Assembly: GCF_030323865.1 (NCBI RefSeq)
Contig: NZ_CP066362.1
Coordinates: forward strand, 248,001-312,000
DNA length: 64,000 nt
Direction: 5' to 3'
Source: Pseudarthrobacter defluvii
GTDB taxonomy: Bacteria; Actinomycetota; Actinomycetes; Actinomycetales; Micrococcaceae
The first letter of the stretch is position 1; each line of letters opens with the position of its first letter. This document shows, in pieces, positions 33,458 to 38,117 of the stretch. The notes below the pieces were generated by a model. That model was not told the origin of the DNA. It ran no database searches and saw only the letters and a program-made list of their open reading frames with translations. Made by a program: the position numbers and the translations under genes.

Positions 33458-35184
33458 GCTTCGAGATCCCGCGCCGGCAATACGCCGACCTTTATGGACC
33501 GACCACCGGGGACAAAATACGCCTGGCCGACACCGAGCTCTTCCTCGAGATCGAAAAGGACCTCACCGTCTACGGCGAGGAAGTGGTGTTCGGTGGCGGG
33601 AAGGTGATCCGTGACGGCATGGGCCAGAACGGGCAGGCCATCCGGGATGAGGACATTCCGGACACCGTGATCACCAACGCCGTCATCCTGGACTACACCG
33701 GCATCTACAAGGCGGACATCGCCCTGAAGGACGGGCACGTCTTCCGGATCGGCAAGGCCGGAAACCCGCAGATCACCGACGGCGTGGACATCGTGATCGG
33801 CGCCAGCACCGAGATCATCGCCGGGGAACGGAAAATCCTCACCGCCGGCGGCATCGACACCCACATCCACTTCATTTCCCCGGACCAGATCCCCACGGCC
33901 CTGGCCAGCGGGGTCACCACCATGATCGGCGGCGGCACCGGCCCCGCTGAAGGCACCAAAGCCACCACCGTGACCCCGGGAAAGTGGCACATCCAGCGGA
34001 TGCTGCAGGCCGCCGAGGCATTCCCCATGAACATCGGCCTGTTCGGCAAAGGCCACGCGTCCGCCGTCGAACCCTTGACCGAGCAGATCCGCGCCGGCGC
34101 CATCGGGCTGAAGGTCCACGAGGACTGGGGCGCCACCACCTCCTCGATCGATACTTCGCTCAAGGTGGCTGACGAGTACGACATCCAGGTTGCCATCCAC
34201 ACCGACACCCTCAACGAGTGCGGCTTCGTGGAGGACACCATCCGCGCCATCGACGGCCGCGTCATCCACACCTTCCATACCGAAGGCGCGGGCGGTGGAC
34301 ACGCCCCGGACATCATCAAGATCGCGGGCATGCCCAACGTGCTGCCCGCGTCCACCAACCCCACGCTCCCGTACACGCGCAACACCATCGAAGAGCACCT
34401 GGACATGCTGATGGTGTGCCACCATCTCAATCCGGACATCCCCGAGGACGTGGCCTTCGCCGATTCCCGCATCCGCGCCGAAACCATCGCCGCCGAGGAC
34501 GTCCTGCAGGACCTGGGCATCTTCTCCATCACCTCCTCCGACTCGCAAGCCATGGGCCGGGTGGGCGAGGTCATCACCCGCACCTGGCAGGTGGCGGACA
34601 AGATGAAGAAGCAGCGCGGGGTTTTGGAAGACAACGACGGCGGCACGCACGGCAGCGCGGACGGCGACAACTTCCGGCTCAAGCGCTACGTGGCCAAGTA
34701 CACCATCAACCCTGCCCTGGCACAGGGCATCGCGGACTCTGTCGGCTCCGTGGAAGTGGGCAAATTCGCCGACCTGGTGCTCTGGGACCCGGCCTTCTTC
34801 GGCGTCAAACCGGAAGTGGTGCTCAAGGGCGGCCAGATCGCCTACGCCCTGATGGGCGACTCCAACGGGTCCATACCCACGCCGCAGCCACGGACCATGC
34901 GGCCCATGTTCGCCACCTTCGGCAAGGCCGTGCACCGGTCGTCCATCACCTTCCTGTCCAAGGCAGCGATCGACTCCGGTGTCCCCGAAGAGCTGGGGCT
35001 TCAAAAGGTCATCCGGGCCGTCTCCGGCATCCGGCAACTCACCAAGGCCGACCTCAAGTACAACGACGCCACCCCGGACATCCAGGTGGACCCGGAAACC
35101 TACCAAGTGACCGTCGACGGCGAGGACGTCACCTGCGAGCCGTCCGACGTCCTGCCCATGGCGCAGCGGTACTTCCTCTTCTAA
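33454..35184 (+). CDS. ureC: Urease alpha (catalytic) subunit
   Basis: 576 residues. The amidohydrolase barrel holds both nickel ions: His137 and His139 (DTHIHF), carbamylated Lys220 (GLKVHEDWG), His249 (AIHTDTLNE), His275 ([11 protein letters not shown]) and Asp363 ([10 protein letters not shown]). The flap His323/His324 ([10 protein letters not shown]) is present. It hydrolyses urea to ammonia and carbamate. The start is the GTG overlapping the ureB stop. All key residues are intact, so the enzyme should be active. Confidence 0.98.
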
Positions 35185-35205: not shown

Positions 35206-35691
35206 GTGATCATCGAACGAGTCCTCGGCAACCTCCACGACCTGCCGGACACCGACCTCGCGGCCTATGCCGGGCTGCACCGCGAGAAGGTTGTCCTGCC
35301 CAGCGCTTCCCTGGTCAAACGCATTCAACGGGCGACGACGGACCACGGCAAGGAGATCGGCATCCGGCTCCCCGCAGGCTCCGGCGACCTCCGCGACGGC
35401 GACATCCTCCACGTCGCCGATACCAACATGATCGTCGTCTCCGTCCTGCCCACCGACGTCCTGGTCATCGCACCCAGGACCATCACCGAAATGGGCATCA
35501 CCGCACACTCCCTCGGCAACCGGCACCTCCAGGCACAGTTCTTCGATGCGTCCTCGGAATATGAAGCCGAAGTCATGGTGTGCGCCTACGACCACACCGT
35601 CGAGGACTACCTCCGCCACCAATCCGTGCCCTACACCCGCCAGCAACGCGTCCTCCCTGTGCCTTTCCGCCATGCTGAACACAGTCACTAA
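35206..35691 (+). CDS. ureE: Urease accessory protein UreE (nickel carrier)
   Basis: 161 residues. N-terminal peptide-binding domain (VIIERVLGNL) and C-terminal metal-binding domain with AHSLGNRHLQAQF and the metal-site YDHTVEDYL. The C-terminal tail is only mildly His-rich (FRHAEHSH). It hands nickel to UreG. The start is a GTG at 35206, 21 bp after ureC. A palindromic repeat follows in the gap before ureF. Confidence 0.94.
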   Translation: MIIERVLGNLHDLPDTDLAAYAGLHREKVVLPSASLVKRIQRATTDHGKEIGIRLPAGSGDLRDGDILHVADTNMIVVSVLPTDVLVIAPRTITEMGITAHSLGNRHLQAQFFDASSEYEAEVMVCAYDHTVEDYLRHQSVPYTRQQRVLPVPFRHAEHSH

Positions 35692-35743
35692 TAGGCCCGT
35701 CGCCACGCTGGGCGCTCCTCGAGGTGTCCGGGTTGGCTGCGCC

Positions 35744-35807
35744 GCCCCGGGATGGGGGCCGTGCCCGCTTCGCGGTGCCCGCCACGCCGCGGCCCCCATC
35801 CCCGGGC
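35744..35807. repeat. Palindromic element, copy 1 (ureE-ureF gap)
   Basis: A 17-nt left arm (35744-35760) pairs with a 17-nt right arm (35791-35807) with one mismatch, enclosing a 30-nt core (35761-35790) that starts GTGCCCGCTTCGCGG and ends CGCCACGCCGC. The core is 29/30 identical to copy 2 at 37222-37251. The arms of the two copies share only the inner GGGGCC / GGCCCC and otherwise differ, yet are complementary within each copy. The element lies 35 bp upstream of the chosen ureF start. Confidence 0.85.
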
Positions 35808-35841
35808 GTCGCTTGGGTTCGTCGCCTTGGGTGCGCTTTTC

Positions 35842-36510
35842 GTGAGCGGGTATCAGTTGGCTTTGCAGCAGTTGGTTGACTCTGCGCTTCCTACTGGGGC
35901 TTTTGCCCACTCTTTGGGGTTTGAGACCTACGTTGACGCCGGTGTGGTTGCTGATGAGGCTGGTTTTGGAGTGTGGTTGTCCGCGTTCATCTCTCAGTCG
36001 CTGACCTATTCGGATGGGCTTGCTATTCGACTTTTTTATGAGGGCGGTGAGCTGGGGGAGCTCGATTCTCTTTTGTCTGCTTCCCTTTTGCCCCGGCAGG
36101 TTCGGGAGGCCTCCCTCAAGATGGGCTCGCGGCTGCTCGAGATTGGGGCTGAGGTGTTTCCTTCGCCCGCGCTGGGGCTGTACCGGGACCTGGTAGCCAC
36201 CGGCCGGGCCTCCGGGCACCAGCCGCTGGCGTTCGCCGTCGTCGCCCGCTCCCTCGGGGTGCCGCTGCAGGAAGCACTTGCCGCCTACCTCTTCGCCACC
36301 GTCACGTCCCTCACGCAGAACGCCGTCCGCGCCATCCCGCTCGGCCAGAACGCCGGGCAGCGGGTGCTGCGGAAAGCGCACGACGACGTCGCTGCCGCCC
36401 TCGACGCGATCGCGGACCTCACGCCGGACGACCTCGGCGCCGTCAGCCCCGGACTGGAAATTTCACAAATGCGGCACGAACGCCAACGTGCCCGGATGTT
36501 CATGAGCTAA
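35842..36510 (+). CDS. ureF: Urease accessory protein UreF
   Basis: 222 residues from the GTG at 35842, the usual UreF length. Landmarks are QLVDSALPTGAFAHSLGFE, the helical core and LTQNAVRAIPLGQNAGQRVL, ending RMFMS. The frame is open back to 35752, but that part translates the palindromic repeat ([11 protein letters not shown]) and has no UreF counterpart. Codon choice in roughly the first 300 bases is rich in T-ending codons, then turns to the normal G/C-ending style. UreF works with UreD and UreG in nickel insertion. Confidence 0.92.
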   Translation: MSGYQLALQQLVDSALPTGAFAHSLGFETYVDAGVVADEAGFGVWLSAFISQSLTYSDGLAIRLFYEGGELGELDSLLSASLLPRQVREASLKMGSRLLEIGAEVFPSPALGLYRDLVATGRASGHQPLAFAVVARSLGVPLQEALAAYLFATVTSLTQNAVRAIPLGQNAGQRVLRKAHDDVAAALDAIADLTPDDLGAVSPGLEISQMRHERQRARMFMS

Positions 36511-36540
36511 CCGTGCTTACCGCTTCACAGGAGGAACACC

Positions 36541-37155
36541 ATGACTGAACCCATCATGATCGGCATCGGCGGGCCGGTCGGCGCCGGTAAAACCCAGCTC
36601 GTGGAACGGCTCACCCGGCACATGAGCGGCGACATCTCCATGGCCGCCATCACCAACGACATCTACACCATCGAGGACGCCAAAATCCTCGCCGCCAACG
36701 GCATCCTGCCCGTGGACCGGATCATCGGCGTCGAAACCGGCGGCTGCCCGCACACCGCGATCCGCGAAGACACCTCCATGAACACGGCCGCCATCGAGGA
36801 ACTCAAAGCCCGGCACCCCGACCTGCAGGTCATCTTCGTCGAATCCGGCGGCGACAACCTCTCCGCCACCTTCAGCCCCGAATTGGTCGACTTCTCCATC
36901 TACATCATCGACGTGGCCCAGGGCGAAAAGATCCCCCGGAAAGCCGGCCAAGGCATGATCAAATCCGACCTCTTCATCATCAACAAAACCGACCTGGCTC
37001 CGCACGTCGGCGCCGATCTCGCCGTCATGGAACGGGACTCAAAGGAATTCCGCGGCAACAAACCCTTCTGTTTCACCAACCTCAAAACCGACGAAGGGCT
37101 GGACAAAGTCATCGAATGGATAAGGCGCGACGTCCTGATGCTCGACCTGGCATGA
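36541..37155 (+). CDS. ureG: Urease accessory GTPase UreG
   Basis: 204 residues of the SIMIBI GTPase class. P-loop GGPVGAGKT (10-18), the nickel-site CPH motif ([11 protein letters not shown]), [19 protein letters not shown] and the guanine motif NKTDL are present. There is no His-rich N-terminus. It supplies GTP hydrolysis for nickel delivery. GGAGG lies before the ATG. Its stop is overlapped by the ureD ATG (ATGA). Confidence 0.97.
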
Positions 37156-38117
37156 GTACGACGGCGGCAGCAAGTTCCGCACGTCCGTCACCGGGGCCTG
37201 CGCCCGCGGGTGGAAGGGGCCGTGCCCGCTCCGCGGTGCCCGCCACGCCGCGGCCCCTTCCACCCGCGTCCGCTGATCGGCCCCCGATGGGCGAGCTTGA
37301 GTTTGTGGTCGCCTTGCGTGGTCAGCGCTCGGTTGCTTCGCATCAGTACCACCGGGGTGCTCTTCGAGTTATGCGGCCTCACTATCTCGATGACTCGGGG
37401 CAGGTTTGTTATGTCGTTGTGAATCCTGGCGGGGCTTATCTTGGGGTGGATCTGTTCCTGCTGGATATTGAAGTCCAGGATGGGGCTGACCTGCTGCTGA
37501 CCACGCAGTCCGCCACGAAGGTTTATCGGACTCCTGGGTCGTTTGCCGAGCAGCGGATGGCCGTGCGTTTGGGGGAGGGGGCCCGGCTGGAGTTGATGCC
37601 GGACCAGCTCATTGCCTATCGGGAGGCCAGCTACCGGCAGCGGACCTCCGTGACCCTGCAGCCGACGTCGTCGCTGGTCATGGCCGAAGTGGTGACGCCC
37701 GGCTGGTCCCCGGACGGGGCCGCATTCCGGTACGAGGAAGTCCGGCTGCGGAACGAGATCCGCGTCGAAACTGAAGCCGGCACCGAACTGCTGGCGCTGG
37801 ACAACCTGCTAATCCGGCCGCCGCTGACCGATGTCACCGGGCTTGGATTCATGGAGGGTTTCAGCCATCTGGGGTCGCTGGTGGTGGTGGATCCGCGGGT
37901 GGACCAAGGGCTGGCGGATGAACTGCATCTGCTGACTGCTGAACACCAGGCCCTGACTGGCCTCTCGTTGACCCGCACGGTTGGGGGAACCACCGGGCTG
38001 GTGCTGCGCAGCCTGTCCAACAGCACCGACGACCTGAACCGCCTTCTTCGATCCTGCACGGACCTGCTGCGCCGACGCTGGTTTGGGCAGGAACCGTTGG
38101 ACCTGAGGAAGCACTGA
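37152..38117 (+). CDS. ureD: Urease accessory protein UreD (UreH)
   Basis: 321 residues if it begins at the ATG overlapping the ureG stop. The family part starts around [12 protein letters not shown] (Met at 37287) and includes [32 protein letters not shown] and [14 protein letters not shown]. The first 45 residues are Pro/Ala/Arg-rich, partly encoded by palindromic copy 2, and make it longer than typical UreD. The early conserved part has many T-ending codons, as in ureF. The ATGA overlap favours the long start, but 37287 (276 residues) is possible, lacking a clear ribosome site. The stop overlaps the permease start by one base. Confidence 0.9.
37205..37268. repeat. Palindromic element, copy 2 (within the 5' part of ureD)
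   Basis: Left arm 37205-37221 and right arm 37252-37268 are perfect 17-bp reverse complements, enclosing a 30-nt core (37222-37251) that differs from copy 1 at one position (T to C). Arm sequence beyond the shared GGGGCC differs from copy 1 but pairing is preserved. Same orientation as copy 1. If ureD starts at 37152, the element is read in frame as part of the protein. Confidence 0.85.

Follow-up and report, generated by a model that had tools for sequence, protein, structure and literature searches.

REP, BIME and REPIN elements are intergenic hairpin repeats tens of bases long, and REP copy numbers usually lie far above one to four per genome. Covariation between paired bases is commonly read as strong evidence, at the sequence level, for a functional RNA. 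Rickettsia palindromic elements (RPE) are reported to have inserted in frame into genes (PMC10969869). Template switching is described as homogenising the arms of inverted repeats and inverting their spacers (PMC8604942), and as creating and maintaining hairpins (PMC8794818; PMC6649704). A passage of the RepRanger paper gives repeat counts for one Arthrobacter, and RAYT goes unmentioned in that passage (PMC12306157). Here we describe elements from Pseudarthrobacter that form a real palindromic family of this known general kind, in which the unusual feature is the behaviour of the arms; the family is described nowhere in the open-access literature searched (PMC).

The window, a 64,000-nucleotide stretch of the Pseudarthrobacter defluvii genome, carries two copies of the element in its urease operon:

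35206–35691, + strand: ureE, upstream of copy 1 (open reading frame; NCBIfam UreE)
35739–35812, + strand: copy 1 hairpin, outer extent (23-nt arms, 91% complementary)
35744–35807, + strand: copy 1, inner arms and 30-nt core, in the ureE–ureF gap
35761–35790, + strand: fixed 30-nt core of copy 1, GTGCCCGCTTCGCGGTGCCCGCCACGCCGC, common to copy 2 bar one base
35845–36510, + strand: ureF (Pfam UreF), likely true start read as GTG at 35845
36541–37155, + strand: ureG, upstream of copy 2 (open reading frame; NCBIfam UreG)
37200–37273, + strand: copy 2 hairpin, outer extent (23-nt arms, 91% complementary)
37205–37268, + strand: copy 2, inner arms and 30-nt core, in the ureG–ureD gap
37222–37251, + strand: fixed 30-nt core of copy 2, with C in place of T at position 10
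37287–38117, + strand: ureD (Pfam UreD), downstream of copy 2, likely start read as ATG at 37287

The sequence-only reading of this DNA was right about the two 64-bp elements, their coordinates and a 30-nt core with a single difference, and gene-family matches confirm its placement of the copies ahead of ureF and ureD. It had also described arms that are unlike each other and nonetheless paired, which is what we find: with G–U counted as a pair, the arms of copy 1 (35744–35760 and 35791–35807) pair at 16 of 17 positions and those of copy 2 (37205–37221 and 37252–37268) at 17 of 17, and the two copies resemble each other in the arms only at GGGGCC. The mechanically called ureF reading frame, from ATG 35752, runs through the copy 1 element, and the mechanical ureD frame spans 37116–38117. 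Allowing up to 3 mismatches, the core pattern matches twice in the window, as against no match in 100 dinucleotide shuffles. Predicted RNA folds of copies 1 and 2 reach −58.7 and −59.0 kcal/mol (z of −3.4 and −4.6), a stability equalled by 0 of 200 shuffles. Rfam gave no match at gathering level over either window element, and at E ≤ 0.5 on 15 related loci it returned one sub-threshold microRNA model and nothing else. Elsewhere in the window, RF02514 (5′ ureB sRNA) matches at 33609–33898 on the − strand, inside ureC, perhaps through protein-coding similarity.

The P. defluvii genome carries a third copy in the grpE–dnaJ gap, with a different arm pair and a variant core (up to 3 core mismatches), and a covariance-model search of this genome found no copy beyond these three, the next match having an E value of 2.4. 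In a sample of 206 genomes of the genus (Arthrobacter sensu lato), 119 carry the short core with no more than 1 mismatch, at one to four copies each, and the other 87 lack it at that threshold; the reversed core pattern, our control, was absent among the rows listed for the same sample of 206. When up to 3 mismatches are allowed, 25 of 37 same-genus genomes contain the core, our own among them, and none of 22 from other genera in the order does. A scan of named genomes returned at least 115 copies in at least 100 stretches; among the matches listed, 40 lie between ureE and ureF, 36 between ureG and ureD, 31 between grpE and dnaJ and 8 elsewhere, and the titles all name Arthrobacter, Pseudarthrobacter or Paenarthrobacter, bar one Renibacterium metagenome-assembled genome. 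The proposal of a dispersed element, which the sequence-only reading would have given up had the core been confined to two sites or had arms elsewhere failed to pair, therefore stands: the core is widespread in the genus and, a few exceptions apart, other copies also have pairing arms. We rate the elements as a low-copy, genus-restricted, modular family of REP/RPE-like small palindromic repeats. A motif, TCRCCTTRGGYGAG, adjoins many copies; the association is weak because the reversed control already gives 15 sites in our genome, against 27 for the motif at up to 1 mismatch. One locus carries a 14-nt tandem duplication (GTGCCCGCTCCGCG twice) before the core (L123:4372–4415).

Size, palindromic form, intergenic position and dispersal would all suit a REP/REPIN-type element moved in trans by a RAYT (TnpA_REP) transposase, one of the candidates first put forward. 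This idea is already largely refuted, and we consider it barely credible. PF01797 (Y1_Tnp) is absent from our genome and from 36 of the 37 same-genus genomes, ours among them, in a search that was positive in 5 of 14 control genomes; the sole exception, G031, has two matches and lacks the short core. One to four copies per genome is, in addition, far below the numbers usual for REP. The mobilising enzyme is thus most probably not a Y1/RAYT transposase, and with a palindrome family in a well-sequenced soil genus almost devoid of RAYT, the question of what moves it becomes testable.

Both window copies lie on the + strand, as the sequence-only reading had stressed, and this constancy does not extend to other genomes. 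Among the matches listed, all 40 ureE–ureF copies are in sense orientation, ureG–ureD copies divide into 25 sense and 11 antisense, and those between grpE and dnaJ into 24 sense, all on the grpE side, and 7 antisense. A sense ureG–ureD locus (L147) aligns as reverse complement over 103–116 bp with six antisense ureG–ureD loci, and four other sense loci do so over 45–101 bp; the longer match implies that the arms and some flank turned together with the core. Two hybrid copies (L052 and L121) have left and right arms of different types, which points to recombination within the core. Four ureG–ureD sites without the core (L075, L130, L137 and L140) keep parts of one arm and look like deletion remnants, and among the sites read no clean pair of empty and filled sites with a target duplication was seen for the short core. 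In one grpE–dnaJ gap there is a second long palindrome (L003:1328–1431), and a similar body in G006 (L195) has different yet paired outer arms and an inserted hairpin module of the kind described below.

These orientations bear on the possibility that the element is a cis-acting structured RNA in operon mRNAs, acting in processing, stability or attenuation through a protein-bound loop and covarying helices. A conserved loop between covarying helices is the classic signature of such an RNA, and the invariant sense orientation before ureF and the grpE-side position of the 24 sense grpE–dnaJ copies fit it, as does a copy behind a permease gene that is lodged in a stem with TTTTT after it. The antisense copies (11 of 36 at ureG–ureD and 7 of 31 at grpE–dnaJ, among the matches listed) count against it, as do the 87 of 206 genomes that dispense with the core at up to 1 mismatch and the Rfam searches, which offered nothing at gathering level and only the sub-threshold microRNA model at related loci. 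In three genomes, moreover, an antisense core lies in frame near the N-terminus of cysD, with the frame left open (L071, from P. aurescens TC1, whose gene a profile match assigns to the CysD family; L134; L126). With orientation varying at two of the three main sites and three antisense copies in cysD, the RNA hypothesis of the sequence-only reading is weakened; we retain it as a rival, though an unlikely one.

The cysD copies also raise the possibility that insertion builds its own palindrome, one flank being copied in inverted form so that the arms derive from the target. In P. aurescens TC1 the right arm encodes PSAER, as does element-free G032, and the left arm repeats it in inverted form. 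This is a single case in which 15 of 20 bases were judged alike by eye in a stretch under coding constraint, and elsewhere inner arms are common to unrelated sites: three other-site copies (L067, L069 and L106) have inner arms identical to ureG–ureD or ureE–ureF types. We regard target-derived arms as very unlikely. The core is in none of 30 relatives' cysD loci within the stretch read; at the 5′ ends of five cysD genes (L314, L307, L302, L301 and L326), palindromic repeats of other families were seen in frame by eye.

Several relatives carry a longer core at the same gaps, in which 60 nt (counted on L167) replace the CTT or CTC of the short core, giving GTGCCCG-TCCCCAGCCGC...GTGGGCCCCC-CGCGGTGCCC. 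The predicted fold of the long core is T-shaped and includes a second hairpin, with CTCGCAAGCTCG as its loop. The same ureE–ureF arm, GAGGGATATGGGGCC, accompanies the long core in L150 and the short core in L029 and others. Most simply, the short core would be an internal-deletion derivative of the long, T-shaped element.

The second hairpin is itself dispersed as a separate module, found at up to 3 mismatches in 31 of 37 same-genus genomes, with five places in our own, and in none of 22 from other genera; where present it numbers 1–10 per genome. The first three inner pairs of the module are Watson–Crick in 109, 105 and 99 of 113 distinct contexts. In L177 it sits inside an arm of another repeat (GCTCC-module-TGTCGTTTT), of which a module-free copy lies in the window at 2449–2516 as a perfect 30-bp palindrome, CCCCATCGATTGCTCCGTAGTTGTCGTTTT, with an 8-nt loop and similar sequence at other loci, and in three loci (L197, L201 and L204) the module is nested in a loop of its own kind. 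This nesting partly bears out, for the related module and not for the 30-nt core itself, the idea of an element that targets palindromes, which the sequence-only reading had suggested among other options.

Such nesting (L177, L197 and L201) would suit a core that inserts into the loops of pre-existing hairpins, so that its arms are the target's, and immediately downstream of an amino-acid permease gene the core does lie within a stem in two genomes (L328 and L329), with TTTTT after the stem in L328. At this site, however, most other loci read have unrelated terminator stems, and none of 28 other permease loci shows the same arms around a normal loop. The inner arms that three copies elsewhere have in common with the urease sites are a further difficulty, and we think it improbable that the arms were already there. 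At one orthologous site downstream of this permease gene, the two sides of terminator stems (GCCCGACGTCGGCACCC...) also vary together between species (L332–L357).

The sequence-only reading had argued that something keeps or rebuilds the pairing, and the aligned arms bear this out. In an alignment of 32 copies, 30 of them distinct, the arms pair in 91.4% of cells, compared with 66.3% when shuffled and 41–57% when slid; double-changed cells number 124 against 47, and both sides change in 13 of 17 pairs. The 23 pair types are not above shuffles (23.5). RNAalifold predicts the same helix from the aligned copies. Among the 63 distinct arm pairs from the matches listed in the named-genome scan, 873 cells are Watson–Crick, 24 G–U and 111 mismatched. 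Over the inner 12 columns of these pairs, G–U accounts for 20 of the 71 imperfect cells; random single substitutions would give 25%, and terminators show 13 of 46, both near this share. The resemblance to terminators is a point for an RNA. An argument that G–U is nearly absent, and the process hence DNA-level, was weakened by the larger count and by the terminator control, and we retain it in the near-neighbour form that follows, which varies with the edge length chosen.

Coupled changes were counted on minimum-spanning trees of arm types, built per site and orientation, with genus terminator stems behind the permease gene treated under the same rule as a control. Along edges of up to 2 columns, which are not true ancestor–descendant steps and which link species that are not independent, the elements show 31 double Watson–Crick changes (18 transversions and 13 transitions) and 18 one-sided steps, 17 to a mismatch and 1 to G–U. 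The terminators show 4 double, 6 mismatched and 4 G–U. Fisher tests of elements against terminators give p = 0.04 for G–U and 0.03 for double against single changes at this setting, 0.07 and 0.09 for edges of up to 3 columns, and 1.0 and 0.18 for 1-column edges. The contrast favours coupled rewriting at the DNA level; it is not decisive and is marginal against terminators. Terminators, too, undergo double changes, so that selection on pairing may play a part. The covarying helices of the elements suit an RNA family and are also expected from DNA-level correction of the arms.

Between copies, the arms are less alike than the cores, although a master copy carrying its arms would predict equal likeness. 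For 19 genomes we compared the cores of the ureE–ureF and ureG–ureD copies within each genome: they agree at position 15 in 19 of 19 (p = 0.0008), at position 10 in 9 of 19 (below chance), at position 21 in 14 of 19 (p = 0.17) and at position 26 in 18 of 19 (p = 1.0). We did not adopt within-genome homogenisation of the core, as this pattern of agreement could reflect no more than clade history.

In the window, ureF and ureD are rich in T and poor in C at third positions over their opening 80 codons (35845–36084 and 37287–37526). Third-position T over the first 80 ureF codons averages 0.363 in 44 loci with a short or long element before the gene and 0.203 in 19 without. The nearest-relative contrast, a comparison short of full phylogenetic correction, is positive in 16 of 19 cases with one tie. 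Beyond these codons the difference within ureF is small (0.114 against 0.085, p = 0.01), ureE and ureG do not differ with the element before ureF (63 loci), and third-position A is not raised at the ureF start. In the window's ureD, third-position T is 0.38 at the start and 0.11 in the rest; across 62 loci the T content of the ureD start does not depend on the element, averaging 0.286 in the 53 loci that have it and 0.253 in the 9 that lack it (p = 0.14). The T-rich start of ureF could reflect selection for an open start region where a gene is not coupled to the one beside it, or mutation promoted by the hairpin. That the ureE–ureF element goes with altered codon usage at the ureF start is also a point for a structured RNA.

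The explanation towards which we lean, by a narrow measure, is a REP/MITE-like palindrome family resembling RPE, in which a deletion gave rise to the short core, the element spread to tolerated sites and its arms are rewritten by template switching. The 30-nt core would have arisen by an internal deletion in the longer T-shaped element that reduced 60 nt to 3 nt. The element, with no required host function, would have spread to a handful of sites where it is tolerated: operon-internal gaps, the expected terminator position behind the permease gene and the variable N-terminal stretch of cysD. It would usually have carried its arms along, since three copies (L067, L069 and L106) bear inner arm types of other sites. 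Once settled, the arms would behave as a quasipalindrome in which a mutation that arises on one side is often transferred to the opposite arm, most probably through replication template switching in the hairpin, so that the arms drift together and stay complementary. The same kind of process could invert the element, as at ureG–ureD. Cores would remain alike across sites if copies are young relative to arm turnover, if they recombine through the core, or both. More tentatively, we propose a fuller picture of modular, nesting hairpins in which template switching continually rewrites both arms at once around a centre that stays uniform across sites, and whose presence before ureF goes with a C-to-T shift on the coding strand in the first 80 codons.

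Arms that covary in an element that changes orientation and occurs in frame within genes show how the step from covariation to RNA can fail. At least 115 copies, many of them recurring at orthologous positions, make it possible to measure how fast paired changes arise. If template switching is the cause, the family would document, in nature and at many sites, how quasipalindromes are corrected in bacteria, and would be an instance of ‘RNA covariation’ arising without selection on RNA.

Compared with known systems, the elements resemble REP, BIME and REPIN in being intergenic hairpin repeats of tens of bases. They differ in that 36 of 37 genus genomes lack a Y1/RAYT gene, in that the short core has one to four copies in each of 119 of 206 genomes instead of the many extragenic copies that mark REP/REPIN, and in that the arms vary and the core does not. 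A MITE, as a cut-and-paste derivative of an insertion sequence, would carry its parent's terminal inverted repeats and a target-site duplication; the arms here differ between copies and so are not constant terminal repeats, and the sites read gave no clean empty site for the short core. RPE (PMC10969869) are likewise short palindromes that form several families within one genus. They share the capacity for in-frame insertion into genes as well as intergenic placement, seen here in three cysD genes; they belong to another host, whereas a fixed core, arms that differ between copies and one to four short-core copies per genome characterise the present elements. The sequences of the two are presumably different as well. 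Volvox palindromic repeats belong to organelle genomes, and their TAAA/TTTA loops are unrelated to the elements here. Rho-independent terminators are alike in their near-perfect GC-rich stems, and one copy occupies an expected terminator position, but the elements have a 30-nt loop and the window copies are intra-operonic with no T-run. Quasipalindrome correction by template switching is reported to homogenise arms and invert the spacer (PMC8604942; PMC6649704), to which the coupled changes and inverted copies of these elements may correspond; it is a mutational process and not an element, and in the present case it would operate across the many copies of a single family.
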